A stretch of 64,000 nucleotides of DNA from assembly GCA_030710605.1 (NCBI GenBank), contig CP092863.1, positions 109,665,316 through 109,729,315 of the forward strand. The letters are read 5' to 3'. The notes below the pieces were generated by a model. The model was not told where the DNA came from and searched no databases. It saw only the letters and a list, made by a program, of their open reading frames with translations. Origin of the DNA: Cordylochernes scorpioides. Taxonomy: Eukaryota > Arthropoda > Arachnida > Pseudoscorpiones > Chernetidae. Shown here piece after piece: positions 11,365-48,715 of the stretch (its first letter is position 1; the number at the start of each line of letters is the position of its first letter). The position numbers and the translations under genes were made by a program.

Positions 11365-12035
11365 TTATTGTGCCCCTGTTCTTCTCTCTTCCACGAGTGC
11401 AATTTTATTTACAACCGAATTTTGGTAGTTGAACAGTTCTATTGCCCAACTTTTCTTATCTGAAACAGTTTTTATTGTCTTTAATGAGTTCAAATGTGGT
11501 CTAGGAAGACTTTTCAGGATCTTTTTTCTCTCACCTTCCAGATCTCCGCACTCGGCAGTAAAATGGTATATCTCATCGGTTATCTGACCTCCGCATAACT
11601 TACAGTACAAATCTTCTTTCTTAATTACGTAGATATGATTTTCTTTGATCAATGTTGATATTATCCTGATCTGTGCAATAAAACTCACTAAAGCTGAGGA
11701 CAGATTGCATGAAAAATAATGTTCTGGAATGAATGAATCATAAAGTAACCTATAGTTTGAGTATGTTTTCGTAAGAGATAATTTTGCCAGATCTTGCTGC
11801 AATAGCTGTTCAATTTTTATTTTTAGTATATTCGGTAGTTCGATCTGTATGTCATCATAATTTAACCTAAGGTTTAGCCGTGTGAGTCCACAATGATTGA
11901 TGATATCCATGATATTTTTACAGAATCCTATAGGTTTTTTTGTCATTAAGGAAATTTCCTTCAATCTATTCCAGCATAGCTTAGGTAGTCTATTTTCTTC
12001 CATTTCCTGTAATCTAATGAAATATTTCATAATTA
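11365..12035 (-). pseudogene. LINE ORF2 C-terminal region with zinc-knuckle-like motif
   Basis: Open minus frame ending at 11365. It carries a Cys/His cluster (CKLCGG, then YHFTAEC) of the kind found at the C terminus of many LINE ORF2 proteins, where it helps bind template RNA or target DNA. It is the continuation of 12665-13211 across the foldback insertion: removing the insert and one target-duplication copy gives a continuous frame near IMKYFIRLQ. The first residues of the longer open frame (to 12156) come from foldback DNA and are not LINE protein. Confidence 0.72.
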
Positions 12036-12079
12036 ATAACGAGTTTACAAAGTGGGAAGAGGAGCTTCTTTTTATTAGC

Positions 12080-12120
12080 ATGCACACAAGCTTTCGGACA
12101 TATCGTCCTTCATCAGGTAA
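12080..12120 (-). ncRNA. Hammerhead-like motif, left arm of foldback
   Basis: Read on the minus strand: CTGATGA (complement of 12110-12116), a GGAC/GTCC hairpin, GAAA (complement of 12092-12095), then GC...GC followed by TA. This is the type I order with a short stem III. Stem I next to the core is weak (first pair A-C), so activity is uncertain. Confidence 0.42.
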
Positions 12121-12550
12121 GAGTAATAAACGCGCTGAGGATCCATATATACACAAAGCTGAAAAGAAAATTTACATAACTGCAAAAGATAAAAGTATTT
12201 AAAGATAAAAATAAGAACCAAATATGCTAAAAAGATTATAGGAATTAAATGCTAATAAATCTGGACTAAGTACATATGCACTGTGAATGGTGTTAATCAA
12301 GGGCAGGTAAATGCAACCTATGCAGCCATAGGTTGCATTTACCTGCCCTTGATTAACACCATTTACCTGCCCTTGATTAACACCATTCACAGTGCATATG
12401 TACTTAGTCCAGATTTATTAGCATTTAATTCCTATAATCTTTTTAGCATATTTGGTTCTTATTTTTATCTTTAAATACTTTTATCTTTTGCAGTTATGTA
12501 AATTTTCTTTTCAGCTTTGTGTATATATGGATCCTCAGCGCGTTTATTAC

Positions 12551-12600
12551 TCTTACCTGATGAAGGACGATATGTCCGAAAGTTTGTGTGCATGCTAATA
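12551..12600 (+). ncRNA. Hammerhead-like motif, right arm of foldback
   Basis: CTGATGA 12557-12563, stem II GGAC 12565-12568 with GTCC 12574-12577, GAAA 12578-12581, then a GC...GC short stem III and TAA. Mirror of the left-arm motif with one difference (AGTTT against AGCTT), which weakens stem III here. Similar blocks occur in the foldback at 28336 and beyond the PLE at 15462. Confidence 0.42.
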
Positions 12601-12664
12601 AAAAGAAGCTCCTCTTCCCACTTTGTAAACTCGTTATTAACCTTCAGTGAAGAGCAGTTCTACT

Positions 12665-13211
12665 TATTTCATAATTAGTTTGATCGTTGTAAAAGTCAGA
12701 GATAATCTGCCTGTTTCCAACCTTACAATATACCCCGGTATATATCTTGGCAGATTCAGAAAGTTTTTGATAAACGTATTCTGTATTTGGTCTATAATAT
12801 CGGTATTGTCCCAAGCCCACACAGGGGCCGCATAGAGAAGTATTGATTTAATAACTGAGTCAAATAAATTCAGTGCAACTTTTAATGAATTAATTTTTTC
12901 CCTTTTTATCAGTCTAATAGTTGCATTTATTGCCGTATTTGCTTTGGCTTTATAAAAGAGGGCTACCTTTTTGCTATTATTAGTGGTAGTGAATGGAAAT
13001 CCCAAATACATAATATTGGACGCAACAGTCAGTGGGATGTCCCCCCAGTACCAGTTTTCGTGTCTTGCCGGTCTTCCTCCATTTCTAAATACCATCACCT
13101 TGGACTTATTTACATTTAAAACTAATTTGTTATTGTCCAGATAAGACTTTAGTAAATTGATTTTAGTTTGTAGGTTAATTTTAGATTCTCCAATTATGGC
13201 TATGTCATCCC
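12665..13211 (-). pseudogene. LINE reverse transcriptase, region after motif C
   Basis: The minus frame begins at a degenerate catalytic box (WDDIAIIGES in place of YADD) exactly at the 5' truncation. It continues through NKLVLNVNKSKVMVF (motif D/E region), IMYLGFPFTT and YAAPVWAWDN, a typical LINE thumb and connection. RT motifs A and B and the endonuclease are absent. It cannot be active alone. Confidence 0.82.
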
Positions 13212-13570
13212 ACAAATATTAGTCTTTTTTTATTTATCTCCGGCAAAAACTCCTATATTAAATTTAAATAGTTTTGTAAATTTATTCTTAAGAATTCCTA
13301 AGAAACTGAAAAAAAAAAAGTTTACATATTGTAGCAGATTATTTATTATTCTATGAAAATATTTTTAATTTCGTATTTGTATTTTGATACACTGTAAAAT
13401 TTTCTCATTGCTTCTCTGCTATTTTTATCAGTTTTAATTTGGTTTTACATTAAATAAATTGCCGTGTCATTCTGAACTTTGTCTTTCCTAATTTTTTATG
13501 TTACAATATAGTTATATCACCGTTTGCTTTGTGAATGGAATAAATACCCAAATATGGCCATTTCTCATAA

Positions 13571-13641
13571 CCATCGGTGGTTCAGTGGTAGAATGCTCGC
13601 CTGCCACGTGGGCGGCCCGGGTTCGATTCCTGGCCGATGCA
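13571..13641 (+). tRNA. tRNA-Gly (anticodon GCC)
   Basis: Matches the metazoan tRNA-Gly(GCC) pattern: D-arm GGTTCAGTGGTAGAATG, anticodon loop CTGCCAC with GCC at 13603-13605, T-arm GGGTTCGATTCC, discriminator A, followed by a run of nine T that can end pol III transcription. No intron. The first acceptor pair is C-C instead of G-C, and one base change each in the anticodon and T stems leaves G-U wobbles. It is either a functional diverged gene or a recent pseudogene. Confidence 0.85.
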
Positions 13642-13744
13642 TTTTTTTTTTAACAATTTTTAAAATTCATTTATATATTATACAAGAATGACATCCACGG
13701 CGCCAATTTATAATTGTAACGAATAGTATTTGAATAAAAGCATT

Positions 13745-13795
13745 TAATCGGGTAAAACCCGGGCGTTGCCCGGGTCATTCGGCTAGTGTACACAT
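13745..13795 (-). repeat. Dispersed hairpin repeat (CTAGC...ACCCGATTAAA family)
   Basis: Contains a perfect GC hairpin, CCCGGGC-GTT-GCCCGGG. On the minus strand it reads CTAGCCGAATGACCC and ends CCCGATTAAA. A diverged copy lies on the plus strand at 50826-50872 (ACTAGCGGATGTACCC...). It looks like the conserved end of a dispersed repeat; I cannot name the family. Confidence 0.6.
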
Positions 13796-13894
13796 ATGGA
13801 TGAAATTTAAGATTTAGATCTAAGATTTTAGATTTATTCTTATACATTTGGCAAAATCATAAAGATACAATTAATAGGCTAATCCCTTAATAGA

Positions 13895-15258
13895 ATGTTT
13901 TTCTCTTCTCCAACAGCCCCCCCTTTCCAGATTTTTAGCCAATTTTCTAAAACCGTTCGTCCGATTGCAAAATACTCCATTCCCCATATCCAACGCTCAA
14001 ACCTTTGTGGGAGAAGTCCTAAAAATCAACCTGAATCTGACCGCAACATAGTGTCTTTTGACGTACAATTCTTATACCCCAGCCTTCCACATGCTCTGAT
14101 CATAAGGTATACAGAAGAACTGCTGCAAGAACATCATATTGATACAGATATTACCCAAAAAATCACACAACTTATTTTCTTATGTCTAAATAACTGCATA
14201 TTTTCATATAACTCCAAATCATACAGGCAGGCAAAAGGGTCCCCAATGGGAAGCCCTCTATCTACTACAATAGCAGAGATCTCAATGCGCGCAATAGACC
14301 GATGGATCACCGCCAAGTTCCCCCGGGACATATTCTTTTGGCGCAGGTATATCGATGATATTTTTTGCATCTGCACCACCACCCAAACCGAAAACATCCT
14401 CAACAGTCTAAACAATTATCACCCTGATCTCCACTTCACCGTTGAAAAAGAGAACAATAATATCCTTCCGTTTCTTGACATAAAAATTATCCGTGACCAG
14501 CATGAATTCCACACCACCGTTTATTATAAACCAACTTTCCGCCCTAATTACGTTCAATACTCGTCCTTCTGCCCAATCAGTCACAAGATCAATACAGTCA
14601 TTGCACTTTCAAAACGAATACATACCCACTGCTCCCTCCAGAAGTACAAGACCCTTGAAACACAAAACATAATAGCTAACCTCAAAAACTGTGCATACCC
14701 AATGTCCTTTATATTACGACACTTTTACGATTCATCCAAAAAGATACAGCCTCCAGTATACAGATCAATTTGCAGTATGCCATATTCACCTTTAGCATCC
14801 ACCATTGCCAGATTCTTGTTAAAATTCGGAATTAAAACCTACTTCACCTGCGCACCTACCTCAGGATCCCTTCCCCGAAACCAAATAATGAAACTCAATT
14901 ATAATGAACCTCACAGTACGGCACGTAACGTTATTTACTTAATAGAATGTTCAAATTGCCCAAGAATCTACGTGGGTGAAACTGGAAGACAGGTCAATAT
15001 CAGAATTCATGAACACAAAAGAAATATTGATAACCGAGACCATAGATCCTTAATAGTTCAGCATATCAACGAAACTGCCATTCCTTCAACATTACATCAC
15101 CCAAAATTAATTATTCCAATATCTCCAGCAAACATCAAAGACTAGTCATCGAATCCCTCCTGTCAAGCAAATTCCACAGCCTTAATAGAAAAATTGATCT
15201 ACCGGAAATTTACAATGTATTATTCCCTGCAGCCACCAAACCTCCCACCGTACCATGA
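13895..15258 (+). pseudogene. Penelope-like element with C-terminal GIY-YIG, 5' truncated
   Basis: Reads RT motif A as VSFDVQFLYPSLPH, motif B as AKGSPMGSPLSTTIAEI, motif C as RRYIDDIFCI, then LPFLDIKI and the linker TTVYYKPTFRPNYVQYS. It ends in a GIY-YIG nuclease (YLIECSNCPRIYVGETGRQ, IRIHEHKRN). A frameshift near 15135 puts the catalytic-Glu segment (RLVIESLL) in another frame that closes at 15258. The fingers before motif A are missing or scrambled. RT-then-nuclease order is that of classical Penelope/Neptune/Poseidon elements, unlike the PLE at 1-10640. Confidence 0.86.
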
Positions 15259-15407
15259 ACTCTGAGACCGCAAATTCAATAGTTAGTCTGTCCTGTGTTT
15301 CCAAAATATGCCGTAATCTTTGTCTTATTCCATACCAGTTCATATTGTAGACATTCAAATTCTCTCTATATGTATACTTTTTGCATAACTGTAGTATATT
15401 TTCGGCT

Positions 15408-15500
15408 TCTTCGTGTGTATATATATGGATTAGATCCGAAAACGTCAGTAGCGTAATTTTCCTGTCGAAGGGCGGTTGAGCCAGAAAGCTCTAAATAAAT
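15408..15500 (+). other. PLE 3' flank with degenerate hammerhead-like block
   Basis: CTGTCGA 15462-15468, a GGC/GCC hairpin and GAAA 15484-15487 followed by GCTCTAAATAAA. This resembles the CTGATGA-hairpin-GAAAGC blocks of the foldbacks, but A6 of the hammerhead core is replaced by T. A second GAAA after GGATTAGATCC lies at 15431-15440. PLE termini are known to carry hammerhead motifs; this one looks decayed. Confidence 0.35.
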
Positions 15501-15529
15501 TTATTTGCTAAAGATACTCATCCCTCAAG

Positions 15530-16040
15530 TGTTCACACCTTAGCCAATATTCCTTTGATCACTGATTATATGGAATCTAGAATTATAGGTTATGAGTTGA
15601 ATAATTTATCAACAGAAGATAAACAATTTTATGATTTGTATATTCCAGGTATACTCAAAGATTTCATTATTTCAAGGATTAATTTACTGAAAAAGAATAC
15701 TAATCAAACATTTCAAAGTTTCTTTCCTTATGCAATTCCGAAATATTTTCGACCAAACTATTATAATTCACAATTTATAACAAACCATGGAAATTTTAAG
15801 GGATTTTTATCAAAAATTGGCGCGAGTGAAGATTCTAGCTGTCATTGTGGCAACGAATTCCAGGACTCGAGACACCTACTGCTGGAATGTCCACTCTTCT
15901 TCACCGCTAGACAACAGACAATAAATAATGTTGTAGATCTATATCAATTTGTAAATAGCAGAGAGAATTATCATAAGTTTAATTATTTTTGTAAATATAT
16001 TCATGATTTTCTTTCAAACATGAAAGGTTCAGGTTCCTAA
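15530..16040 (+). pseudogene. LINE ORF2 C terminus with CHC zinc motif
   Basis: About 170 residues remain. The motif TNHGNFKGFLSKIG followed by CHCGNEFQDSRHLLLECP is the conserved C-terminal end of R1/Jockey/I-like LINE proteins. RT and endonuclease are absent through 5' truncation. No stop interrupts the remnant, so the insertion may be young. Confidence 0.82.
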
Positions 16041-16191
16041 TATATATATATATTTTTTTTTCTCTTTTTATTTCGATTACTTTTTTTTTTGTAAAAATTT
16101 TATAGCTGTTTCTGTTTAAAAAATGTAAATCGACGCAATTATACCTAGCCGGGATATCGCGTTTGTGTGTTAAAATGAAATAAATAAATAA
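15530..16191 (+). mobile_element. 5'-truncated LINE with ATCCCTCAAG target duplication
   Basis: ATCCCTCAAG occurs at 15520-15529 and 16192-16201. The insert holds the end of an ORF2 protein (to 16040), a T-rich 3' UTR and a (TAAA)n tail. These are hallmarks of target-primed reverse transcription. It sits in the sequence that follows the PLE 3' end. Confidence 0.9.
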
Positions 16192-16201
16192 ATCCCTCAA
16201 G

Positions 16202-16499
16202 CTTATTGATTTTTTAACATAATAAAGATACAATGTTAGAAATATTAAAGGAATTAAATAAACATCACAGAATAATCTATGAGCGCTCGATTCTAAAGGA
16301 GATAATATGAGTAAGATATATATTCTATGGAATGTCATTCTAAAGGATTGTTTATTTGTATAAATTTTCTAAAATCTAATTTGCATTTCTAATTATTCAA
16401 TGTATATTTATATAAAGATATTTGTTATTTAAATATTGTCACAGAGCTTATATAAATATATTATAAGTTACGTAGATTTAAAACTATCTTATTCTTCTT
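16202..16499. other. AT-rich DNA, nothing recognised
   Basis: No coding, RNA or clear repeat signal seen. It starts at the second target-duplication copy of the LINE at 15530. Confidence 0.5.
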
Positions 16500-16712
16500 T
16501 CTTATCTCCACTCAATCATATTAGAGTATCAAGCTTGTAAAGCTTGAGACTTTTGATTGTGTCTGCCGGGGAAGAGTAGAGCTCATCAATGGATTGTCAA
16601 TACAGTCAATAATGGGTTTTGGGGTTGCAGGTTGACACTTAGTACATAGTGGGAAAACCTTGCAACCATTCTGTCATTGTCCGTAGATGACCAGTCTGGT
16701 GAGTCTGTGAAT
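16500..16712 (-). pseudogene. Jockey-like LINE C-terminal remnant
   Basis: The minus translation contains FPLCTKCQPATPKPIIDCID after a degenerate TRL-VIYG segment. It resembles the C-terminal Cys cluster of the LINE remnants at 46927-47130 and 55736-56037. Stop codons are present. Short and old. Confidence 0.6.
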
Positions 16713-17280
16713 ATATAAAGGAAGGTTTTCAATTAAATATTTCATAAAAAATACATAAAAATGAAATACAAAATTTAAAAAAACGATATAACTTTAGTGA
16801 AACTTAATTATGATATACACAATTGTTTTTAGCTATATTTTTTTAACACGAGAAAATCAATTTAAACAACCATTTGAATTTTATATAAAAAAAACTCCTC
16901 TTTGATGTTCAAAGGGAAATTCTAGTGTAAATTAGATTATTGAAAACTGTTAAAAATTCTCAGAATTGATTCTATATCTGGCTAATTAGTAACTTTGTTT
17001 CTCGAGAATTTTGTTTTTATCACACCGAGTTGGCGTTTGATGACCACTTTCTATAGAAGACAAAAAAAAAAGCAAGTTTTTTTTTTAACTTAAAAAAATC
17101 CGTCGATAAATTTGAATGAAAGTTCCTATGAACGTTCAAAAATACGATTTCATTTACTAATATAGAAGCATAGGGCGCCTCTCCCGTCAAAATAAACGTC
17201 AAAACCTGACGCCATCTATTGACCGTCGCCGAAACTAGCGGCCTCGGGTCGGTAACAAAGCCACAACACCAGCTTTGGCA
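16713..17280. other. AT-rich spacer leading to repeat shared with 51030-51100
   Basis: Mostly featureless. The segment 17150-17220 (GGCGCCTCTCCCGTCAAAAT and neighbours) is the reverse complement of a related stretch at about 51020-51065, so it belongs to a dispersed repeat of unknown type. Confidence 0.5.
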
Positions 17281-17285
17281 AACTG

Positions 17286-17343
17286 AGAAGTGTCCAACTA
17301 GAGACCATGGTTTCGGGCTAATGGCCTTCGTCAGTCTGCTTCT
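17286..17343 (-). ncRNA. Type I hammerhead ribozyme candidate with minimal stem III
   Basis: On the minus strand: outer stem I AGAAG/CTTCT (17339-17343 with 17286-17290), inner stem I AGA/TCT (17335-17337 with 17300-17302), CTGACGA (17328-17334), stem II GGC/GCC with loop CATTA, GAAA (17311-17314), then CCATGG as a tiny stem III and UC giving a GUC cleavage triplet. CUGANGA permits C at position 7. A self-complementary stem III of two or three pairs fits the dimer-forming minimal hammerheads described in PLEs and retrozymes. Activity is inferred. Confidence 0.55.
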
Positions 17344-17574
17344 ATGGATAAATTTCCTCCCGGCAAATTTTACATCTATATTTACTATTATGTAGTTTGA
17401 TTTTTGTCTTAATTTGCTAAAAGTGGTGTTATGGCTCATTCATTATTATCACAGTAAAGGTTTTTTACTGGTGCGATAAACATAATGCATTGTTCTGATG
17501 CATAGTTAAAGAGAGATGTGCTTCTTTTGGTACATGAATATCATCTTCCCGTAACTTTATGTTGTATTATAGCC

Positions 17575-17820
17575 TTATAAATTGCTGACAGTGTTGGAGG
17601 GAAAGCTCCGGGGGAAGAGATCGAGAGGAAGGAGGCGACAGAGATACACAGACAGTCTAAAAAAATGGACTGGACGACACACCTACGAGGAGATGAATGG
17701 GATAGCGGAGGGAGATATGGAGAGACCATGTGGTCCACCCTCAGTAGAGGAAGGCCCTGGAGGAGGGAGATATGGAGAGACCATGTGGCCCACCCTCAGT
17801 AGAGGAAGGCATTGAAGGAG
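17575..17820 (+). pseudogene. LINE ORF2 C-terminal remnant
   Basis: The translation LEGKLRGKRSRGRRRQRY followed by TDSLKKWTGRHTYEEMNGIA is the basic C-terminal tail found on many endonuclease-RT LINE proteins. It is 5' truncated. Its end grades into the 55-bp minisatellite, whose unit derives from the last codons and 3' UTR. Confidence 0.7.
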
Positions 17821-18150
17821 GGAGATACAGAGAGACCATGTGGCCCACCCTCTGTAGATGAAGACATTGAAGGAGGGAGATATGGAGAGTCCATGTGGCC
17901 CATCCTCAGTAGAGGAAGGCATTGAAGGAGGGAGATACAGAGAGACCATGTGGCCCACCCTCAGTAGAGGAAGACATTGAAGGAGGGAGATACAGAGAGA
18001 CCATGTGGCCCACCCTCTGTAGATGAAGACATTGAAGGAGGGAGATATGGAGAGACCATGTGCCCCACCATCAGTAGAGGAAGACATTGAAGGCGGGAGA
18101 TATGGAGAGACCATGTGGCCCACCCTCAGTAGAGAAAAGCACTGAAGGAA
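17708..18150 (+). repeat. 55-bp minisatellite derived from a LINE 3' end
   Basis: About eight head-to-tail units containing AGAGACCATGTGGCCCACCC, with small substitutions between units (CTCAGTAGAGGAAG against CTCTGTAGATGAAG). The first unit is continuous with the LINE C-terminal coding remnant. Confidence 0.9.
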
Positions 18151-18425
18151 GAGGATAGCCTGAATATTATAACTCCTATCGTAGGATGTTATGAAATCGA
18201 GCCGCCTCTGTACTGATGAGTGCCATAGCCCGAAACAATTGTCGCGAAAAGTGGCGCAGTGCCCAGGCTCTATCTTGTCTGGACACCCAAATTCTAATGT
18301 CCTGGGCAGGAGTACCTATCTCAAGGAAGTCTTCAAGATAAACTCCCGTTGTCTCCTGCAAGTATCTCCGGCGTCCTCTCAAGTAACAGCCAATAATGAT
18401 GCGAGGCTAACCAGAGACTGAACGG
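18151..18425. other. Unassigned sequence with a weak hammerhead-like block
   Basis: At 18215-18250 the order CTGATGA, short imperfect hairpin, GAAA, CAATTG, TC resembles a type I hammerhead with a minimal palindromic stem III, as at 17286. I find no stem I pairing next to the core, so this is weak. No coding evidence. Confidence 0.3.
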
Positions 18426-18556
18426 AGGGAGGTGGTTGTTTACTTGGGGAGGTGGTTGTTTACTTGAGAAGGTGGTTGTTTACTTGAGAAGGTGATTGTT
18501 TACTTAGGGAGGTGGTTGTTTGCTTGAGAAGGTGATTGTTTACTTAGGGAGGTGGT
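18426..18556 (+). repeat. 20-bp minisatellite, array 1
   Basis: About six units of GGAGGTGGTTGTTTACTTGG with variants. The same unit forms a second array at 20090-20376, about 1.5 kb away in the same orientation. Confidence 0.92.
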
Positions 18557-18637
18557 TGGATTTCGTTCAAAATATCTTTTTTTTTCAAAGTTCCTTTCCA
18601 ATACCGGATATAAAAAGTAAAACAATGCAATGTTAGA

Positions 18638-18740
18638 GCGGTATGGTAGATTGATCTGGAGAAACCGCTGAAAGGGTTCACCACTGATGAGCAGGCCCTT
18701 ACAATTTTTATTATTTTTGCAGTAAGGGCAGTACGAAATT
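18638..18740 (+). ncRNA. Ribozyme-like MITE core, copy R1
   Basis: GCGGT 18638-18642 pairs with ACCGC 18664-18668 (stem III); A18643 is the UH cleavage position; TGGT 18644-18647 pairs with ACCA 18680-18683 (stem I); GAAA 18661-18664; CTGATGA 18684-18690. Stem II is damaged in this copy (GCAG against CTGGA). AAGGG pairs with CCCTT on either side of the CTGATGA strand. Same strand order as the PLE RNA. Confidence 0.55.
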
Positions 18741-18854
18741 GTTTTATTCGATTTACAAGTATTAAGTTTACTTGTATTTTAAAAAGAAACTGACGCTTTA
18801 TAAATGACTTATATTTTCAAATACAGATAGCCCACTCTCTCTCTCTCTCTCTTA

Positions 18855-19490: not shown

Positions 19491-20089
19491 GTTTTGTGAG
19501 AAACTAATCAAACGAACAAAGACTCCAGACACAGAGAAACAATATACCGCACTGTTAACTTGGTATGATTCTACACTCCAGTACGACGTGTAGGCTTATA
19601 CGAAAATTATTCGGTACTACCAAGTTACCCAGAAAAGTTATCTAATTTGATCTATGAAATCAAACCTTTAGGAGGAACGAGAAGACGCCGAAGAACCAAG
19701 TACATTGTCTTAAGAATGAAATCATACTACAGACAACTTGACAAGAGCACCAAGACGTAGACGTCACTGAAGCACTGGTACAGCAATGATCATTCAATCT
19801 GTGAAGCCATAGCTCTCTATAAGGTAGGAGCAATTTAATTAATTTATATCTTAATTAATTATTTTATATTCTATTACTGCATGAAGGTAAACATTGTATG
19901 ATGGAGAAAACATCTATAGTCACCGCCTCTTTGCTATTGGAAATTAATTTAATTATCTTTTTAGATTTTTATCTTGGATTTCTTAAAAAAACCTTATTTT
20001 ATCATATAGATAAGGTTATCTTGTTTAATTAAATTACCATACAATATATAAAGTGGTTCTCCGGGAATCCGGGTTACATCAGGAGAGAT
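19491..20089. other. No gene recognised
   Basis: AT-rich DNA between two repeat arrays. The only frames are short and lack any family signature. Confidence 0.5.
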
Positions 20090-20376
20090 TGTTTACTTGG
20101 GGAGGTGGTTGTTTACTTAGGGAGGCGGTTGTTTACTTGGGGAGGTGGTTGTTTACTAGGGAGGGGTTTTTTTACTTGGGGAGGTGGTTGTTTACTTGGG
20201 GAGGTGGTTGTTTACATATGGAGGTGGTTGTTTACTTGGGGAGGTGATTGTTTACTTGGGAGGTGGTTGTTTACTCAGAGAGGTGGTTGTTTACTCAGAG
20301 AGGTGGTTGTTTACTTAGGGAGGTGGTTGTTTACTTGGGGAGGTGGTTGTTTACTTGGGGAGGTGGTTGTTCACTT
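20090..20376 (+). repeat. 20-bp minisatellite, array 2
   Basis: About fourteen units of the GGAGGTGGTTGTTTACTTGG type. Frames through it encode only repeated WLFTWGGGCL-like residues and are not genes. Confidence 0.93.
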
Positions 20377-20421
20377 GTTTACAAAAGGAAATTAGTTAAT
20401 AATATACTAAAATGATAATTA

Positions 20422-21345: not shown

Positions 21346-21527
21346 AAAAGAACCTGGATTGAATCCCGCGTTGGACATTTTTTAAATATGTGAATAACCT
21401 TCACACATATTATTCATTGTTTCAATTATCATAAACTAGGTTGCTCTTGTTGAGTGGTTCCTAGTAAAGTTATTTTGGAATAAGGTAAACTCTCTAATTT
21501 GTTATAATAAATATAAATTACTTTCGA

Positions 21528-21720
21528 CGTTTATGATTCTTTTTGAATTAAAAACAATTTCTACTGTGCTCTTATTACAATGATACAATACCGTTGTAGT
21601 AGATTAAACTGGCGAAACCGCTGTGAGGATTCACCACTGATGAGCCAGGCCTTCACATTATTCTATTATTGCAGTAAGGGCATTAGAAAATTGTTTTAAT
21701 TCAAAAATAATCATACGTAT
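21528..21720 (+). mobile_element. Palindromic MITE carrying the ribozyme-like core, copy R2
   Basis: The ends TTTTGAATTAAAAACAATTT and (complement) AAATTGTTTTAATTCAAAA form terminal inverted repeats around a central structured RNA. The RNA has CTGGC 21609-21613 pairing with GCCAG 21644-21648 (perfect stem II with the canonical G10.1-C11.1 pair), GAAA 21614-21617 and CTGATGA 21637-21643. The stem III and stem I strands at 21590-21600 are partly mismatched in this copy. Confidence 0.6.
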
Positions 21721-22627
21721 CAAAAACAGTTTATATTTCTCTTATAATAATGTGTATTCGCATTATAAATAAATTTTATTTTATAGATAAAAGAGAATAT
21801 ATTAAAAATATTGTCACTGAATAATTATTTTAAATATTCTGTTGTTTATCATCATAAATATTTGCATAGTCATCACCCCTTACCATGCTTGTAAATTACC
21901 ACTTGAAAAATCCGTTGATACATTTAGTAATATATATGTTTAATTAATTAATAAATTATTTTTAATTAAGCTTTTGGAATACTTGTCTTCTCTACCGTGA
22001 CAATATTATAAGAATGTATTTTCAAAAAATCACCTAAAATTAGCTGTCTACACTTATTATTTCTATATCAAACGAAATAATATCGTTTTGCATTAAAATA
22101 AATAATTACTTTTATAGGAAATTCAATAATGTACCTAAAAAAAATCATACCATTATAGAAAAAAAGAATAGTTTCATAAATAATTTTATTTTCGACATTA
22201 AATAATAAATGTCCTAGTTTTTGACATCATCAATCCAATGTTTAAATGGAAATGGAAAAAAAAAAAGATGGAAAAAGATTTAACGACATTTTGGCGGGAA
22301 CTAATAGGGTAACTTGTCGTCTGTATAGAAATTGGTCTTTTGGCTTCTTTAAATATTAAAATGGCGTCGTTCACCTGCTCCCAACGACATTCATTTTAAT
22401 TATTCCTTTCAATTTCTATCATTTCTTTTAAAAAGGAATATGTAAATTATATTTTTGTTTCTCTAATTTGATTGTTATATTTTGATAAATTTTATTGTTT
22501 ATGGTGTCCATATCCTATATATTTTATATTATTAGCAATGTTTCATGCTCATATTTTTTTATTATCCCAAGTATATGTGATACAAGCTATGAAAATCATA
22601 ATAGGTAGTTTGCGAATACTTTTACTG
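21721..22627. other. AT-rich DNA, nothing recognised
   Basis: No coding, tRNA or clear repeat signal over about 900 bp apart from poly-A and poly-T runs. Confidence 0.5.
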
Positions 22628-22808: not shown

Positions 22809-22879
22809 ATGTATGCATATTTTATGCAAATATTATTATAAGAGAAATATAAACTATTTTTGATACGTATGGTTATTTT

Positions 22880-22995
22880 TGAATTAAAACAAATTTCTAC
22901 TGTCTTTACTGAAATGATAGAATAATGGGAGTGCCTAGCTCATCAGTGGTGAACCCGCCTAGCCGTTTCGCCAGTTTAATCTACTATAACGGTAT
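22880..22995 (-). ncRNA. Ribozyme-like MITE core, copy R3
   Basis: On the minus strand: CTGATGA (22940-22946), GAAA (22966-22969), stem II GCTAG with CTGGC (one U-G), and stem III CCGU with ACGG. Compared with copies R1 and R4 (GCGGU/ACCGC), a G-C pair in stem III has become C-G. Stem I is weakened by a G-to-A change. The inverted-repeat end TTTTTGAATTAAAACAAATT lies at 22880. Confidence 0.58.
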
Positions 22996-23234
22996 TCTAG
23001 TATTCACACTTATTTATTTTCTCCATAATATAAATTTATATATCAATATTTTTCTCCCCGTTGAATATAAACAAAAATTATTTTAAAACTTAATTCTATT
23101 GATGTTATGTGGCTCTGAGTTTGTTGTTGACACACATTAAATATGTTATAATACCTTGATAAAGGTTGGCGTTCAGCCAACTGAAATATTGATAAAATAA
23201 ATGATATTTTGATCCAATATATTCCTTTTTATTT

Positions 23235-33949: not shown

Positions 33950-34418
33950 TGTGGCATGCATGGCGTTAGAAAATAGTTCTAAAAGTGGCCAATAGGTGGC
34001 GCCATGGATTTATGCGGCGTTTCTCTGCTCTGACTCTGTTGTTAGTCCTGTTCCTTCGTCATCCCCTGTAATAAATGGTTCTGTGCATGATTCCTCCTCC
34101 GGCCTCATCCTGCCACCTGTATTATGTAAAGTACTTGTTATATGATATTGCGACCATTTATAATGTAGATAAAGTGTTTTAATAAATCCCTTTTGTTCTT
34201 CGGCGTTGTGCGGTCGTGACTCTCTTTCCGACAACACATCGCTGCGCCTCTGGTCAGTCCTGACTGTCCCCCCACCCGTGGTAAGGCTGACGGATACTGC
34301 TAGAGGTTAGGGGAGTTTCACGTGGTGGCGTGGCTCTCAAGTGGTAGTGTAGGGAAGGCCAACGGTCCAAAGGGTCAGCCACAGTAAGGAAGCGTTAAGA
34401 GGGGTAGAGCACGTAACA
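33950..34418 (+). repeat. Gypsy-2 5' LTR
   Basis: About 469 bp, TG...CA. It contains AATAAATGG and AATAAATCCC, possible polyadenylation signals, near 34070 and 34180. Confidence 0.92.
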
Positions 34419-34438
34419 TTTGGTGTCAGAAGTGGGAT
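34419..34438 (+). promoter_or_regulatory. Gypsy-2 primer-binding site
   Basis: TTTGGTGTCAGAAGTGGGAT directly follows the 5' LTR. This is the position and typical wording of a Gypsy tRNA primer site (TGGTGTCAGAAGTGGG). Confidence 0.8.
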
Positions 34439-34482
34439 CCTTATTAGTGGACTGACCGGCAGTATCTGGTGGAGAGTCGGGG

Positions 34483-35766
34483 TTGAGGCTCTGGAAGGAA
34501 CCAGATAGTTGGCACCTTGTTTGTATGCCTGTGGAGACCAGAGGACAGAAAATGGCCTCAGAGGAACTTTTGAAGCAGTTCATGGGCCTTATGAGGCAAG
34601 AAAGGGAGCAAGAAAAGGAGGAGGAAGAGCGGAGACGAGAACAAGAAAAGGAGGAGGAAGAGCGGAGACGAGAACAAGAAAAGGAGGAGGAAGAACGGAG
34701 ACGAGAACAAGAAAAGGAAGAGAAGCTGAAGCGAAGAGAAGAAAAAGAGGAGAAGCTGAAGCGTGAAAAGGAGGAGGAAGAGCGGAGACGAGAACAAGAA
34801 AAGGAAGAGAAGCTGAAGCGAAGAGAGGAAAAAGAGGAGAAATGGGCCAAAATGCTGTCGGGGATAAGGGTGGAGCTCAAGGAGGAACTGGCTGCCCTGG
34901 ACAGCAAGATGGGAGAGATAAATATCGCTTTGGAGAGCGAAGTAGATGAGAGGAGGGGAGAGTTTAAGAGGCTTGAGGATGAGCTGGCTCGTCTAAAGAG
35001 TAATGGAGGTTTTGTGGCTGGGACTGCCTCTGCAGTATTAAAAATTACTCCACCAACCTTCGACGGACAGAGTTCCTTCGGGAATTATATGAGACAATTT
35101 GAGGCAGTTTCCCTCAACAATGGATGGGGAGAGGCCGAAAGGGCAATAAATCTCATTGTGGCTCTACGGGGACCAGCATTGGACCTGCTTCAGACAATCC
35201 CGGAGCAGGACCAACGGAGTTACGTAAGTTTGGTAAGTGCTCTAGAATTGAGATTTGGGGATCAGCACTCAAGACACGTATTCCAATCTCAACTAAAGCT
35301 GAGAAGGCAGAAGATGGGGGAAAGCCTACAGGAATTCGAGGCCGACCTGAAGAGACTTTGTCTGATGGCATACCCCAGCGCTCCGATAGATTTCATCGAT
35401 CAATGGGTGGCTCAGACTTTTATCGAGGGTATTCGGAATGTCGAGGTGCAGAAGACATTGAGACTGACCTCCTTCAACACGTCAAGGGAGGCGCTGATTC
35501 GCGCGCTAGAAATAGACGCGGCATTTAAGATCAGCGACTCAGGGCCACCCAGGGTTCGTAAATCTGAGTTGACAGAGGAAGACGGTGCCGTTGGGGGCTC
35601 TAGAGATTCTGGGATTGAAGAAATAATCAAAAGACTGGACAAGTTGGAAGAAGCTGCTAAACATCGCAGAAGACCGGTTGGACCTTGTTTCCGCTGTGGT
35701 AAAATGGGCCACCTGAAAAGTCAATGCACTTCCAGGTTGTCCACCGAACAGCAGCAGGAAAACTAA
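34483..35766 (+). CDS. Gypsy-2 Gag with charged coiled-coil repeats
   Basis: 427 residues. After the start (the second ATG, at 34552, is also possible) residues about 40-125 are tandem Glu/Arg/Lys-rich repeats (EEERRREQEKEEKLKRREEK type), encoded by about 30-bp DNA repeats and predicted to form a long coiled coil. A retrotransposon-gag region follows (ITPPTFDGQSSFGNYMRQFE, then LQEFEADLKRLCLMAYP), with one CCHC knuckle at the end (CFRCGKMGHLKSQC). The 3' end overlaps pol in another frame. Confidence 0.92.
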   Translation: MRLWKEPDSWHLVCMPVETRGQKMASEELLKQFMGLMRQEREQEKEEEERRREQEKEEEERRREQEKEEEERRREQEKEEKLKRREEKEEKLKREKEEEERRREQEKEEKLKRREEKEEKWAKMLSGIRVELKEELAALDSKMGEINIALESEVDERRGEFKRLEDELARLKSNGGFVAGTASAVLKITPPTFDGQSSFGNYMRQFEAVSLNNGWGEAERAINLIVALRGPALDLLQTIPEQDQRSYVSLVSALELRFGDQHSRHVFQSQLKLRRQKMGESLQEFEADLKRLCLMAYPSAPIDFIDQWVAQTFIEGIRNVEVQKTLRLTSFNTSREALIRALEIDAAFKISDSGPPRVRKSELTEEDGAVGGSRDSGIEEIIKRLDKLEEAAKHRRRPVGPCFRCGKMGHLKSQCTSRLSTEQQQEN

Positions 35767-38700
35767 AATCTGCCAGAGCTAAGGGGCGACCGTTGGCAGG
35801 AGTGGACGCAGTCCTTAAGATCGTCTCTATCCAAAGAATGAGGAGGGCGTGGGACACGCTGATGATAGAGATTATTGTAAACTCGAAAAAAATTAAAGCA
35901 ACTGTTGACACCGGAGCGATGGTCTCCTTGATAAGAAAGGATGCGCTGAGAACTGCGCCGAGGCCGTTGCATCGAAAAATGATGCTGAGGACCGTCACGG
36001 GGGATACTGCACCAATTGAAGGAGAGCTTGATGTGGATATCCGTTTGGGGGGGACCCGTTTCGATCATAGAGTACTGGTGGCAGATATCGAGGATGAGTT
36101 TATTCTTGGCATGGACATCATCCGGGAGCATGGCTTCACGTTCGACCCAACACAGGGTATCCTAAGGTTAGGCGACGAAAGCTTCGTGTTGTCAACAGAG
36201 GGTGAGAAGTGTGAAGGCGTCCGACTCTTCGCCTGTGAAAATGGGTGTGTCAGTGGAAACTGCGAAGGGGTTATCATGACGGTTGCCGAGGCACCCCTTG
36301 GGAGTGGTGTTGGCTTGATTGAGCCAACTTGTGACGCAAGGCAGAACCTTTTGGTGGCCAGGGCTAATGTCAAGACCGCCGACAAGAAAGTTCCAGTTAG
36401 ACTGGCCAACGTTTTTCCGAGTGGAATCAGCATCAGGAAGGGAGACTTTCTGGCAGTTTGCTCGCCAATCTCGAGGATCGCCACGACAGAAGGAACTAAC
36501 TGCCAAAGTAGAGTAAACAGGGTGGGGCAGACAAAATTGGAGATAGACCTGAAAGACCTGACAGAGGATGAAGCTCGGATGGCTCGTGCATTTATAAAGA
36601 AAAATCAGGATGCCTTTTCTACTGGTAATGGGAAGTTGGGAAGGACAGACTTGGTCCAACACAAGATTTATACCGGAAATGCTCGGCCAGTCCGGCAACC
36701 TCCTAGACGGGTGCCAATGGCAAAACGAGACGAGGTAGTAGGGCTGTTGCATAAATTGAAGCAGGATGGAGTCATAGAAGAATCCAACAGTCCGTGGTCT
36801 TCACCCGTGGTTCTGGTAACAAAAAAAGATGGGTCTACAAGATTTTGTGTGGATTATCGAAAGCTGAACGAGGTTACCAAGAAGGACAGTTACCCTCTAC
36901 CCCGGATCGATGACACTCTGACAACATTGGCGGGGTCATCTTGGTTCTCTACATTGGATCTAAAGAGTGGATACTGGCAGGTAGGCGTACATCCGGCTGA
37001 CAGGGAGAAAACGGCATTCAGTACCGGGAATGGGCTCTATCAATTCACAGTGATGCCTTTCGGGTTGTGTAACGCGCCGGCTACTTTTGAAAGGCTGATG
37101 GAGCTCGTACTTAGGGGACTAACCTGGAAAACTTGCTTGGTCTACCTCGATGATGTAATGGTTATGGGCAGGACGTTCGGGGAACATCTTAAAAATTTGC
37201 AAGAGATCTTCAATAGATTCAAGGCGGCGAATTTGGGGTTGAATCCTAGGAAGTGCCAGCTGTTCCAGAAGAAGGTAGAGTTTTTGGGCCATACAGTGTC
37301 TGCGAAGGGGATCCAGACAAGCGAGAGCAAGATCCTTGCTATCAGGGATTGGCCCAAACCAAAGGACAAGCACGAACTGCGAAGTTTCCTTGGACTCTGC
37401 ACATACTACAGACGGTTCGTAGAGGGATTTGCAGACATTGCTGCCCCGTTGCACAGATTGACAGAGGCGAAATCGACCTTTCACTGGAATCAGGATTGTG
37501 AGAGCGCATTCGTGACCTTGAAAGGCGGCCTATGCTCCAGTCCAGTTCTGGTGTATCCCCAACCTGGGATGAGATTTGTACTGGACACAGATGCCAGTAA
37601 CAGCGGTATTGGAGCCGTTCTGTCTCAGGTTCAAGATGGAGAAGAGCGAGTGATCGAATATTACAGCAAAATCCTAACCAAACCTGAGCGAAACTACTGC
37701 GCTACAAGAAGGGAGCTCTTGGCCATAGTCAGATCAGTGGAACATTTCCACAGGTATCTATATGGGCAAGATTTCTTGGTTAGGACCGATCATGCCGCAC
37801 TCACATGGCTACTACAGATGAAAAATCCTGAAGGCCAGGTGGCGAGATGGTTGGAAAAGCTGCAGCAATACCATTTTCAAATTAGACACCGGCCTGGGAA
37901 AAGACATCACAATGCGGATGCGCTGTCCAGAAGACCTTGCGGAAGTTGCAAGCATTGCGAAAAAATTGATAAAAATGAGAGCGAGGCGACATCGAGAGGG
38001 ACGACTGTGGTACCGAGCGACGAGTGGACCCCTGCAAGCTGCAGAGCCAGCCAGCAACAAGACTTGAATATCGGTCCAATTTTGGAATTAAAGGAAAACG
38101 GAAACCTAAGACCTAGCTGGGAGATCATATCGGATAAGAGCCCAGCACTTAAGGCATTATGGGCACAGTGGGACTCCTTGAGGGTTGAGAACGGACTGCT
38201 GAAGAGAGTGTGGGAAAGTGCTGATGGGAGGAGCACAAAAATGCAGCTAGTGGTCCCGGAGGTTAAAATTCCTGGTGTCCTGCGGGAGGTGCACAGCGGA
38301 GCCTCGGGATCTCACTTTGGCGTGACGAAAACCTTGAGAAAGGTTAGAGAGAGGTTCTACTGGGTATATTGCCGGGAGGACGTGGAAAATTGGTGCAGGC
38401 GATGTACCACATGTGCTGCCAGCAAAGGCCCACAAACTAGGTCCAGAGGAAAAATGAGAGAATACAACGTGGGAGCGCCTTTCGAAAGGATCGCGATTGA
38501 TGTGGCTGGCCCATTTCCAGTCACAGAGGATGGAAACAAATACCTCTTGGTCGCTATGGACTACTTTACGAAGTGGCCCGAGGTCTACGCGATTCCTAAT
38601 CAGGAGGCTGCTACGGTCGCAAGGGTTCTTGTAGACAACCTTATCTGCCGATTTGGTGTGCCATTAGAACTGCACTCAGATCAGGGGCGGAACTTTGAAT

Positions 38701-39338
38701 CGAAAATATTCCGAGAATTGTGCCAGGTATTGGGAATCTGGAAAACAAGGACTACTCCCCTGCATCCACAGTCGGATGGAATGGTGGAAAGGTTCAACAA
38801 GACCATGGTGGAGCACCTATCCAAGGTTGTGGAGCAGAATCAAAGGGACTGGGACCGTGGACTGCCACTGTTCCTCATGGCGTACCGGGCGGCCATTCAC
38901 GAAACAACGGGTCAAACACCGGCCAAGGTTATGTTCGGACGAGAGCTACGACTCCCTTGTGACTTAGAATTTGGCACCCCTGGAGGACCACCAGTAGAGG
39001 TGACCAGTTATGTGGGCGAACTGAGAGGTGTGCTGTCGGAAACTCATAAATTGGTTAGGAAAAAAATCCAGCTAGCAAGTCACCGGATGAAGACTCACTA
39101 CGATCTAAAAGCAAACCATGAAGGATTCAAAGAGAATGATCTGGTATGGATGTTTAATCCAAAGAGAAAGAGAGGGCTCTCCCCAAAGTTAACACCAATG
39201 TGGGAAGGACCCTACAGGGTCGTCAAGAGAATCAACGACTTGGTCTACTGCATCCAGCGAAGTTCGAAAGCAAAACCAAGGGTCGTCCATTTGAGCCGGT
39301 TGGCACTCTTCCAGGGAGAGCAATCAGAGTGGGCCTGA
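35724..39338 (+). CDS. Gypsy-2 Pol (protease, RT, RNase H, integrase)
   Basis: 1204 residues without interruption. Protease ATVDTGAMVSLI; RT WFSTLDLKSGYWQV (A), MPFGLCNAPATFERLM (B), LVYLDDVMVMG (C); RNase H LDTDASNSGIGAVLS and RTDHAALTWL; integrase zinc domain (HSGASGSHFGVTKTL, CRRCTTCAASK), core DVAGPFPVTEDG, LHSDQGRNFES, TPLHPQSDGMVERFN, and a C-terminal GPYRVVKRINDLVY. The frame is -1 relative to gag and open from about 35703, so expression probably uses a -1 ribosomal frameshift in the overlap of about 64 nt. No chromodomain seen. Confidence 0.95.
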   Translation: MHFQVVHRTAAGKLKSARAKGRPLAGVDAVLKIVSIQRMRRAWDTLMIEIIVNSKKIKATVDTGAMVSLIRKDALRTAPRPLHRKMMLRTVTGDTAPIEGELDVDIRLGGTRFDHRVLVADIEDEFILGMDIIREHGFTFDPTQGILRLGDESFVLSTEGEKCEGVRLFACENGCVSGNCEGVIMTVAEAPLGSGVGLIEPTCDARQNLLVARANVKTADKKVPVRLANVFPSGISIRKGDFLAVCSPISRIATTEGTNCQSRVNRVGQTKLEIDLKDLTEDEARMARAFIKKNQDAFSTGNGKLGRTDLVQHKIYTGNARPVRQPPRRVPMAKRDEVVGLLHKLKQDGVIEESNSPWSSPVVLVTKKDGSTRFCVDYRKLNEVTKKDSYPLPRIDDTLTTLAGSSWFSTLDLKSGYWQVGVHPADREKTAFSTGNGLYQFTVMPFGLCNAPATFERLMELVLRGLTWKTCLVYLDDVMVMGRTFGEHLKNLQEIFNRFKAANLGLNPRKCQLFQKKVEFLGHTVSAKGIQTSESKILAIRDWPKPKDKHELRSFLGLCTYYRRFVEGFADIAAPLHRLTEAKSTFHWNQDCESAFVTLKGGLCSSPVLVYPQPGMRFVLDTDASNSGIGAVLSQVQDGEERVIEYYSKILTKPERNYCATRRELLAIVRSVEHFHRYLYGQDFLVRTDHAALTWLLQMKNPEGQVARWLEKLQQYHFQIRHRPGKRHHNADALSRRPCGSCKHCEKIDKNESEATSRGTTVVPSDEWTPASCRASQQQDLNIGPILELKENGNLRPSWEIISDKSPALKALWAQWDSLRVENGLLKRVWESADGRSTKMQLVVPEVKIPGVLREVHSGASGSHFGVTKTLRKVRERFYWVYCREDVENWCRRCTTCAASKGPQTRSRGKMREYNVGAPFERIAIDVAGPFPVTEDGNKYLLVAMDYFTKWPEVYAIPNQEAATVARVLVDNLICRFGVPLELHSDQGRNFESKIFRELCQVLGIWKTRTTPLHPQSDGMVERFNKTMVEHLSKVVEQNQRDWDRGLPLFLMAYRAAIHETTGQTPAKVMFGRELRLPCDLEFGTPGGPPVEVTSYVGELRGVLSETHKLVRKKIQLASHRMKTHYDLKANHEGFKENDLVWMFNPKRKRGLSPKLTPMWEGPYRVVKRINDLVYCIQRSSKAKPRVVHLSRLALFQGEQSEWA

Positions 39339-39367
39339 TCGGGACGATCAGGTATGATTGGGGGGCA

Positions 39368-39837
39368 GTGTGGCATGCATGGCGTTAGAAAATAGTTCTA
39401 AAAGTGGCCAATAGGTGGCGCCATGGATTTATGCGGCGTTTCTCTGCTCTGACTCTGTTGTTAGTCCTGTTCCTTCGTCATCCCCTGTAATAAATGGTTC
39501 TGTGCATGATTCCTCCTCCGGCCTCATCCTGCCACCTGTATTATGTAAAGTACTTGTTATATGATATTGCGACCATTTATAATGTAGATAAAGTGTTTTA
39601 ATAAATCCCTTTTGTTCTTCGGCGTTGTGCGGTCGTGACTCTCTTTCCGACAACACATCGCTGCGCCTCTGGTCAGTCCTGACTGTCCCCCCACCCGTGG
39701 TAAGGCTGACGGATACTGTTAGAGGTTAGGGGAGTTTCACGTGGTGGCGTGGCTCTCAAGTGGTAGTGTAGGGAAGGCCAACGGTTCAAAGGGTCAGCCA
39801 CAGTAAGGAAGCGTTAAGAGGGGTAGAGCACGTAACA
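39368..39837 (+). repeat. Gypsy-2 3' LTR
   Basis: Nearly identical to 33950-34418. It is followed by ATAT (39838-39841) and then the interrupted BEL-1 LTR. Confidence 0.92.
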
Positions 39838-47578: not shown

Positions 47579-47651
47579 TCCAGGATAGCCTAGTGGACAT
47601 GGCACCTGCCCGGTTAGCAGAAGGTTGTGGGTTCGATTCCCGCTCCTGGAC
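47579..47651 (+). tRNA. tRNA-like sequence, Arg-tRNA-related (possible SINE head)
   Basis: A complete cloverleaf can be drawn: acceptor TCCAGGA/TCCTGGA, D-arm GCCTAGTGGACATGGC, anticodon stem CTGC/GCAG, T-arm GTGGG/CCCGC. The body AGAAGGTTGTGGGTTCGATT resembles arthropod tRNA-Arg. The anticodon loop reads CCGGTTA, giving GGT and C instead of the universal T at position 33, so decoding is doubtful. A T run follows, and the GGACACTTTT junction resembles that of the SINE family. Probably a tRNA-derived element or pseudogene. Confidence 0.6.
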
Positions 47652-48094
47652 ACTTTTATTTTTCCGTTCGCCATTACTCTTCATATTTTTCACCCTCCAT
47701 ACGTCATCCATTCATATATAGACCATCACTCTTCATATATTCAACCTTTTCATACGTCATCCAAAAGTTAGAAATATTAAATTATTTCTCTTTGAAATTA
47801 AAAATGATTTTTCATAAATAAAAAGAAACTTATGCGGTTAAACTGGTTGTATAGCTTTATATTTAATGCTTGATTAAAACGGATATAAAATGTTTAAAAT
47901 AGACTATTTTCGATTAAAATGAAAGTATTTTGATAAAACTGAAAAATATATAGCAAAATTGTTAGAATACTTTTTAAAAAATCGAAAAAATTGAAAAAGA
48001 ATAAAATGTTGCTAAAGTATAAAATTAATACAAATCAATAACACGCCATCTATATATAACAAATGAAAACATTAAGATTCAAATGTTTCTTTTC
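47652..48094. other. AT-rich DNA, nothing recognised
   Basis: No coding or RNA signal. A short motif GCCATCTATATATAACAAAT at 48045 recurs at 48410. Confidence 0.5.
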
Positions 48095-48215
48095 ACAAAT
48101 GAATCAAACTTCTACTGTCCTTACTTGCTATGAAAAAATATTGTGAGGGCTTGGCTCATCAGTGGTGAACCCTTCCAGCGGTTTCGCCAATTTAATCTAC
48201 CAGACCGCTTATTTA
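48095..48215 (-). ncRNA. Ribozyme-like MITE core, copy R4 (best preserved)
   Basis: On the minus strand: GCGGU (48204-48208) pairs with ACCGC, then C as the cleavage nucleotide (a GUC triplet), TGGT (48199-48202) pairs with ACCA, TTGGC pairs with GCCAA (stem II), GAAA (48182-48185), CTGATGA (48156-48162), and AGGG pairs with CCCT around the CTGATGA strand. All three hammerhead helices are intact next to the core. Stem II GCCAA/TTGGC against GCCAG/CTGGC in copy R2 is a compensatory A-U for G-C exchange. The flank ACAGTAGAAGTTTG is the inverted-repeat end of the MITE. Confidence 0.66.
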
Positions 48216-48611
48216 GAGCTCTAATACTGTATTAGATCATTCTGATTTTATATGCTACACTGAAAGGTGGAATCTCAGAAATGACATTTAAGCAAACTAT
48301 GGACATAAGTTTTTAAGACAGTAGAATTATATATAAATATTTGCATCGAGAAATGCTCTTCCGCAAACAATAAGTAAAAGTAAGGCATATCTTAATACAA
48401 AGCAACAACGCGCCATCTATATATAACAAATGGACACATTATAAGACGCGTATACATATAACAAATGAAAACAATAAGACGCGAAAAATGTTGTTATACA
48501 AATAAAAACTGTTGTTACAAAAGTGTAAAATGTCATATTAAAGTGTAAAAGGTTGTCTTAAAATTGCAAAAAATTAGTTTAAACTTTTATAACAGATGGC
48601 GAATGGTTATT

Positions 48612-48715
48612 TTTTAAATTAAAAAAATTCTACTGCCTTTACACTTCAATGATAAATCAATGGGAGGGCTACAGTAGAAATTGTTTTAACAGAATCATAC
48701 GTGTCAAAATAAATT
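48612..48715. mobile_element. Palindromic MITE copy R5 without the ribozyme core
   Basis: Both inverted ends (AATTCTACTGCCTTTACACTT and TACAGTAGAAATTGTTTTAA) are present but lie only about 30 bp apart. The GAAA/CTGATGA centre is deleted. Confidence 0.55.

Follow-up and report, generated by a model that had tools for sequence, protein, structure and literature searches.

A type-SGC hammerhead motif in an abundant, short, retrozyme-like element of the pseudoscorpion Cordylochernes scorpioides

We analyzed a 64,000-nucleotide stretch of contig CP092863.1 of Cordylochernes scorpioides (hereafter the window) in which a short repeat copy, R4, holds the parts of a hammerhead ribozyme in the opposite of the ordinary order. 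This locus raises the question of whether the motif is a genuine ribozyme fold or a chance match, and of what kind of element carries it. Direct reading of the minus strand from 48209 to 48142 gave a hammerhead motif with the block order cleavage site, GAAA, CUGANGA, and its letters agreed exactly with the original prediction. Strands of stems and helix arms were assigned from the motif letters and the alignment of copies, the CUGAUGA core from the motif letters, and the whole motif from the letters and a strict descriptor.

48142 to 48209, minus strand: type-SGC hammerhead ribozyme, whole motif
48204 to 48209, minus strand: stem III 5′ strand AGCGGU (block S); GCGGU (48208-48204) pairs with ACCGC (48182-48178), and A48209 with U48177
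48202 to 48203, minus strand: predicted cleavage site, between C17 (48203, the H17 letter) and U1.1 (48202), placed by structural analogy with published motifs (PMC10085705); junctions occur here in other copies
48199 to 48202, minus strand: stem I 3′ strand UGGU, pairing with ACCA (48166-48163)
48182 to 48190, minus strand: block G, the stem II 3′ strand UUGGC (48190-48186) followed by GAAA (48185-48182); UUGGC pairs with GCCAA (48155-48151), including the G10.1-C11.1 pair
48177 to 48182, minus strand: stem III 3′ strand ACCGCU
48170 to 48176, minus strand: stem I-II helix 5′ arm GGAAGGG, with two mismatches in R4
48163 to 48166, minus strand: stem I 5′ strand ACCA
48156 to 48162, minus strand: CUGAUGA core (block C)
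48151 to 48155, minus strand: stem II 5′ strand GCCAA
48143 to 48149, minus strand: stem I-II helix 3′ arm CCCUCAC

Stems I, II and III of R4 all adjoin the core, and the core letters NUH, GAAA and CUGANGA are present in R4 and in the consensus. A linker of 8 nt separates the 3′ strands of stems I and II, and UUC lies between the 5′ arm of the stem I-II helix and the stem I 5′ strand. The further helix that had been predicted around the CUGANGA strand was recovered as AGGG/CCCU in R4; it joins stems I and II, reaches 8 bp in the family consensus, and is the stem I-II helix of type SGC. The R4 motif is real and is a type-SGC, non-circularly permuted hammerhead.

This hammerhead type was published in 2023 as the HRIMA-1 motif and its variants (Eckert et al., PMC10085705). 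The sections of that paper used here describe 583 predicted type-SGC sequences, five candidates that cut in vitro at the predicted site, and one candidate in which loss and compensatory rescue were obtained for stems I, II and III and the I-II helix. Those motifs came almost exclusively from metatranscriptomes, and the same sections assign no type-SGC example to the genome of any known organism. R4 shares with them the block order, the CUGANGA/GAAA/NUH core, stems I-III, the I-II helix and the predicted cut, and its short link from stem III to the I-II helix is inside the range of 0-44 nt given there. The linker from stem I to stem II differs, being 8 nt in the R family and typically three in the published motifs as described in those sections.

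We evaluated how often such a motif arises by chance. Using the strict descriptor, with all six block orders allowed and stems summing to at least 12 bp, R4 was the sole site in the window, and the other five orders gave none. In dinucleotide-shuffled windows, SGC matches of at least 15 bp appeared 29 times in 6388 shuffles, and matches in any order 178 times. For one window alone, chance is unlikely, at about 0.005 for the SGC order and about 0.03 (0.028) for any order. The earlier judgement that chance was unlikely stands in this numerical sense; the window alone is suggestive and not conclusive, and conservation across copies decides against chance. When the strict descriptor was run on the window together with 58 fetched loci (205,823 bases), it gave 38 matches, all SGC and none in the five other orders; this number counts R4 twice (in the window and in locus L001) and comes from loci fetched for holding the family.

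Rfam covariance models at gathering cut-offs over the whole window returned two tRNAs (13571-13641 and 47579-47651) and zero hammerhead matches. At relaxed thresholds, no hammerhead match was obtained for R4, for the motif of a Penelope-like element (PLE) described below, or for region 12000-18400, and two patterns searched against viral_contigs gave 0 matches. Other hammerhead-like letters occur in the window. The sequence CTGATGAAGGACGATATGTCCGAAAG is found at 12116 (minus) and 12557 (plus), where Rfam has no hammerhead match; it looks similar to the ordinary, minimal type I hammerheads found in Penelope-like elements. These sites fall in an inverted repeat whose 281-nt arms match perfectly across a spacer of 46 nt (12033-12640), which has a sub-threshold mir-3479-like match near its centre. 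CTGACGA..GAAACCATGGTC at 17334 (minus) and CTGATGA..GAAACAATTGTC at 18213 (plus) are hammerhead-like and follow the canonical order; their stem III is very short.

A relaxed descriptor, which tolerated as many as two unpaired letters next to stem II and required at least 14 bp, gave four matches in the window, all of them SGC. On shuffled windows it gave 389 SGC matches in 4978 shuffles (0.08 per window) and 1977 for the six orders together (0.40 per window). Besides R4, the four were the following.

5612 to 5700, plus strand: PLE type-SGC-like hammerhead, copy 1, with U opposite UU at 10.1/11.1
9816 to 9904, plus strand: PLE type-SGC-like hammerhead, copy 2, with U opposite U; one I-II helix pair is changed from A-U to C-G relative to copy 1
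18624 to 18748, plus strand: R1, a truncated copy of the R family with an intact S block and a damaged stem II (A at 11.1 and a 1-nt deletion)

The PLE occupies 1-10638 as a tandem pair of units, each about 4.2-4.3 kb long, and one inverted copy, with GIY-YIG upstream of reverse transcriptase. By eye, its motif has a stem III of 5 bp (GACAU/AUGUC), a stem I of 6 bp and an I-II helix of 7 bp, and its stem II GGGG/CCCC sits behind the 10.1/11.1 mismatch adjoining the core. The claim that an unrelated PLE has the same strand order was borne out by the relaxed descriptor, with that mismatch beside the PLE core. The two RNAs had also been said to share no sequence outside the core, and comparison of the R unit with 1-11000 agreed, as nothing significant was found and the only match was 15 nt long (E 0.14). 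A genome search with 5560-5800, around copy 1, gave 899 candidates; 40 of them were scored, and 40/40 were identical. Some PLE copies lie in arrays about 4285 bp apart, and from these two observations the PLE looks recently active. A protein search with the PLE ORF gave 7 weak matches, the best at 28% identity.

Next to these single sites we set the abundance of the R family in the genome (2.62 Gb scanned, 24 contigs). The exact pattern from block G to block C, GAAACCGC N8 TTCACCACTGANGA, had 28,583 + 28,378 = 56,961 matches, and the same pattern read backwards had 0. The idea that the architecture may be general in this genome therefore held, in that it is frequent. The first genome searches returned 2694 candidates for R4 and 4174 for R1, with 40 of each scored.

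To compare copies, we used the 58 fetched loci and the window, in which 95 profile matches were reduced to 85 with a whole core (10 partial ones were dropped) and then to 79 distinct copies; this set is biased, since it consists mostly of the best matches to the queries. The copies formed subfamily A (35 copies, U-A as the outer stem II pair) and subfamily B (40 copies, C-G). The core was identical between the two consensuses at 65/68 positions, and the flanks at 60/100 and 70/100 columns. The three core differences were H17 (A or C, both allowed) and both partners of the outer stem II pair, and all of them appear neutral for the ribozyme. The difference in the outer pair is trivial, since the subfamilies were grouped by it, and the scarcity of other differences is not.

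Among the 79 copies, 92.1% of cells were paired, and the covariation score was 0.117, compared with at most 0.059 for slid partners. Cells changed on both sides numbered 51, against at most 11 for slid partners, and 35 of these 51 represent one shared event. Pairs with a change on both sides numbered 7, a value reached in 30/500 shuffles and exceeded by a slide of +1, which gives 11; the count of further pair types was reached in 181/500 shuffles, and by neither count does the structure rise above its controls. Besides the outer stem II pair, two pairs of the I-II helix covaried clearly, and stems I and III had only 1-2 doubly changed cells per pair. In the seven pairs of the I-II helix 88.6% of cells were paired, including a compensatory A-U for G-C in some copies. 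Catalytic letters were intact in 59/79 copies; 36/79 combined them with stem III of at least 5, stem I of 4 and stem II of 5 pairs, and 29/79 also had at least seven I-II pairs. A11.1 stood opposite G10.1 in 11/79 copies.

We also scored the first 100 listed genome-wide matches, all on one contig (C1), outside the letters fixed by the pattern. These copies were not selected for the outer stem II pair, which was C-G in 49, U-A in 48, U-G in 1 and broken in 2. The remaining stem II pairs were paired in 92-100%, seven I-II pairs in 91-95%, and the outermost I-II pair in 72%. The S block was intact in 58 copies, stem II was complete (5/5) in 83, and at least 7 of 8 I-II pairs formed in 91, scored as the best of three registers; all three held in 48. 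In a third variant, seen in L102, L105 and L160, the 5′ arm of the I-II helix carries A in place of G, and L105 and L160 have the matching U.

These data bear on the possibility that the motif is a chance match amplified along with an unrelated repeat. A single founding match is conceivable at the rates found in shuffled windows (about 0.005 for SGC and 0.028 for any order). Against it stand a core kept at 65/68 between subfamilies whose flanks are 60-70% identical, the differences being a neutral change at H17 and a single compensatory pair; the occurrence of that pair as C-G or U-A in 97/100 copies; and the same topology in the unrelated PLE. We consider this explanation very unlikely.

Folding was predicted without pseudoknots. 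The intact copies L037 and L021 folded into a stem III hairpin next to an I-II hairpin (z -2.23 and -2.65); the two loops would then be in contact through stems I and II. The PLE motif gave the same two hairpins inside an outer helix (z -3.28), and R1 gave them weakly (z -0.77). The predicted minimum-energy fold of R4 differed from the two-hairpin form (z -1.43), which would be in keeping with slight decay and its two I-II helix mismatches.

We then examined the element around the motif by self-comparison and unit annotation, using the doubled unit references UA (367 bp, from R4) and UB (371 bp, from L029), both with 34% GC. The R-family features of the window other than R1 are as follows.

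48025 to 48441, minus strand: R4, 417 nt or 1.14 units of 367 bp, a copy of the retrozyme-like element
48392 to 48441, minus strand: R4 terminal direct repeat, upstream copy (pLTR-like), 50 nt, 90% identical to 48025-48074 at a spacing of 367
48025 to 48074, minus strand: R4 terminal direct repeat, downstream copy; the element 3′ end is at 48025
21497 to 21732, both strands: R2 (21583-21732, plus) with an inverted partner arm (21497-21582, minus, 74%); H17 is G and stem III is broken, so R2 is not expected to cut
22851 to 22999, minus strand: R3, a degraded copy that matches R2 at 88% across 173 nt, with stem III broken
48598 to 48669, minus strand: short fragment of the R4 family

Arrays of a 20-bp minisatellite lie near R1 (18387-18605 and 20040-20416). 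BEL/Pao elements (Peptidase_A17) were also detected and point to an animal host. At 33950-39668 the window contains a retrotransposon with a 1211-codon ORF whose 300-nt stretches 33950-34249 and 39369-39668 are 100% identical, probably a recent insertion.

Self-comparison gave direct repeats 366-374 nt apart in L001, L002, L004, L008, L021, L029 and L037, and deviating spacings of 335 in L006 and 515 in L024. The R-family unit of 367-371 bp, with low GC and spacings mostly of 366-376, is within the retrozyme range of 150-450 bp, and the tandems are partial. The longest copies were 487-526 nt (1.3-1.4 units). Among 118 aligned segments, the 3′ ends clustered at unit positions 180-189 (36) and 150-159 (29), and a 3′ end at 178-196 was present in 36/58 loci; the R-element 3′ end carries GATGGCGCG. 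The 5′ starts of these segments were scattered across the unit, with bunching at 60-79 (16), 240-249 (8) and 350-369 (19). Because these ends were set by local alignment, part of the pattern may reflect divergence. The long copies L004, L006, L008, L021 and L024 start at unit 64-75, directly 3′ of the ribozyme and not at the cut. L017, L036 and L035 carry target-site duplications (TSDs) of 15, 12 and 12 nt, and none was clear in the other 17 of the 20 elements examined.

The original prediction had called R4 a palindromic MITE, that is, a derivative of a DNA transposon; on that reading the hammerhead would be incidental. Inverted arms do occur around R2 and in many loci, which are inverted pairs with their 3′ ends outward. 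These arms are present in part of the copies, however, and two defined ends with terminal inverted repeats were not found. In the first 100 listed genome-wide matches, all eight opposite-strand pairs less than 300 bp apart were minus-then-plus, joined at their 5′ ends, and the palindromes are thus attributable to head-to-head inverted pairs. The spread of 5′ starts against clustered 3′ ends, the partial direct tandem units of about 370 bp, the TSDs of 12-15 nt in three elements, and the copies L017, L020 and L022 without an inverted partner speak against a palindromic MITE, and we regard a DNA-transposon origin as scarcely credible. The R4 element is a partly tandem, 5′-truncated retroelement of about 370 bp and 34% GC. 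The original interpretation was therefore partly supported: the opposite order, the extra helix and the abundance were right, and the MITE label was wrong.

A further possibility is that, in tandem transcripts, blocks from adjacent units come together as an ordinary circularly permuted hammerhead (for example S1-C1-G2), leaving the SGC fold unused. Two same-strand ribozymes are indeed 243-515 nt apart in L021, L024 and L036 and 615 nt apart in L034, and three same-strand pairs 371-376 nt apart were present among the 100 listed matches. However, no such close same-strand pair was seen in the other fetched loci. The I-II helix closes within a single unit, seven of its eight pairs are 91-95% paired, and the published ribozyme tested for this helix needs it, according to the sections used here (PMC10085705). 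Assembly across units accordingly has very little probability in our view.

We searched the copies for junctions at the predicted cleavage site. In the sample of 100, 50 copies break off inside the compared stretch; 2 of these have U1.1 as their first letter (position 0), and 7 break at +1, where a preceding A is indistinguishable from flank. By eye, about 20 true junctions lie within -12 to +11, and 7-8 of these are at 0/+1. In L158 and the palindrome L170/L171, the two arms join as ACCA|TGGT, precisely at the cut. With junctions spread evenly over 24 positions, the probability of such an excess at 0/+1 would be 1e-4 to 6e-4, in a test that was post hoc and used junctions judged by eye. Breakpoints are more numerous at +20 to +23 (16), where most of them resemble sequence divergence. 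In other loci, retrieved with queries extending upstream of the cut, a break at 0/+1 was found in 0/57 copies. Truncated copies starting at the predicted cut may be a hint, as a post hoc trace, of cleavage in vivo.

The fold could instead be a structured signal for reverse transcriptase or packaging, a former ribozyme that is kept for its shape and does not cut. The joint integrity of S block, stem II and I-II helix in 48/100 sampled copies would suit such a signal, and one PLE hammerhead is reported, in the part of the source used here, to cleave only with protein (PMC11167929). Retention of the catalytic letters and of H17 as A or C, both allowed, in the consensuses speaks against a non-cutting fold, as do the 7-8 junctions at the predicted cut, and we judge it improbable.

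Taken together, these results lead us to propose, with a probability of about 0.78, that R4 is a copy of an abundant, short, non-coding, retrozyme-like retroelement that relies on Penelope-type machinery for its movement and on a type-SGC hammerhead for its processing; we infer the cleavage, the circles and the mobilising enzyme. In the proposed mechanism, the loops of the stem III and I-II hairpins would be held together via stems I and II, the CUGANGA strand would dock from the 3′ side and rebuild the hammerhead core, and the RNA would cut itself after H17. Both subfamily consensuses have a TATAAAAG box 32-43 nt upstream of stem III, and as a TATA box it may start transcription close to the ribozyme. 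Cleavage would then yield unit-length RNAs of about 370 nt, which would probably be ligated to circles, and circles or multimers may serve as templates, as described for animal retrozymes in the sections of PMC7229834 used here. Penelope-type target-primed reverse transcription would begin inside the unit, giving 3′ ends near 155 and 185, and would run back at most about 1.4 units. Internal initiation of this type would explain the clustered 3′ ends, spread 5′ starts, pLTR-like repeats, inverted pairs and short TSDs.

The proposed element resembles two known systems in part. Metazoan non-LTR retrozymes (Cervera and de la Pena 2020, PMC7229834), which are expressed as unit-length linear and circular RNA, likewise have short (partial) tandem units, low GC, a hammerhead and high copy number, and TSDs longer than 4 nt are common to them and to the R family where found (15, 12 and 12 nt; 3/20). 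Their hammerhead is type I, whereas that of the R family is type SGC, and R insertions of at most about 1.4 units, often in inverted pairs, are unlike the retrozymes as described in the sections used. Internal initiation of reverse transcription and pLTRs have been described in a PLE, in the part of PMC11167929 used here, and the 3′ ends inside the R unit are as such initiation would leave. PAc, described in that source, shares with the R family partial tandem copies with pLTRs, an internal reverse-transcription start and AT-rich targets. PAc differs in being autonomous, with a hammerhead of canonical stem I/stem II layout, whereas the R element is about 370 bp with no ORF assigned.

The architecture itself was already known as type SGC. 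Our searches of openly licensed PMC papers listed no type-SGC hammerhead from any genome or retroelement, and as far as those searches go, its setting in a retrozyme-like family with tens of thousands of chromosomal copies is new. The motifs of PMC10085705, as presented in the sections used, were mostly metatranscriptomic, whereas those of the R family are in chromosomal DNA, at very high copy number and inside retroelements. We lean slightly towards the broader proposal that the R family, with more than 56,000 ribozyme blocks, and the unrelated PLE both process their RNA in vivo by the non-circularly permuted hammerhead, and that copies starting at the cut record this cleavage. If this is true, the type-SGC fold would be an established ribozyme of retrotransposons, beyond environmental RNA. 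Chromosomal, high-copy elements with a tractable life cycle give the fold a testable role in the processing of retroelement RNA and supply thousands of natural variants for structure-function work, and the R family makes it possible to examine whether permuted hammerheads have multiple origins.
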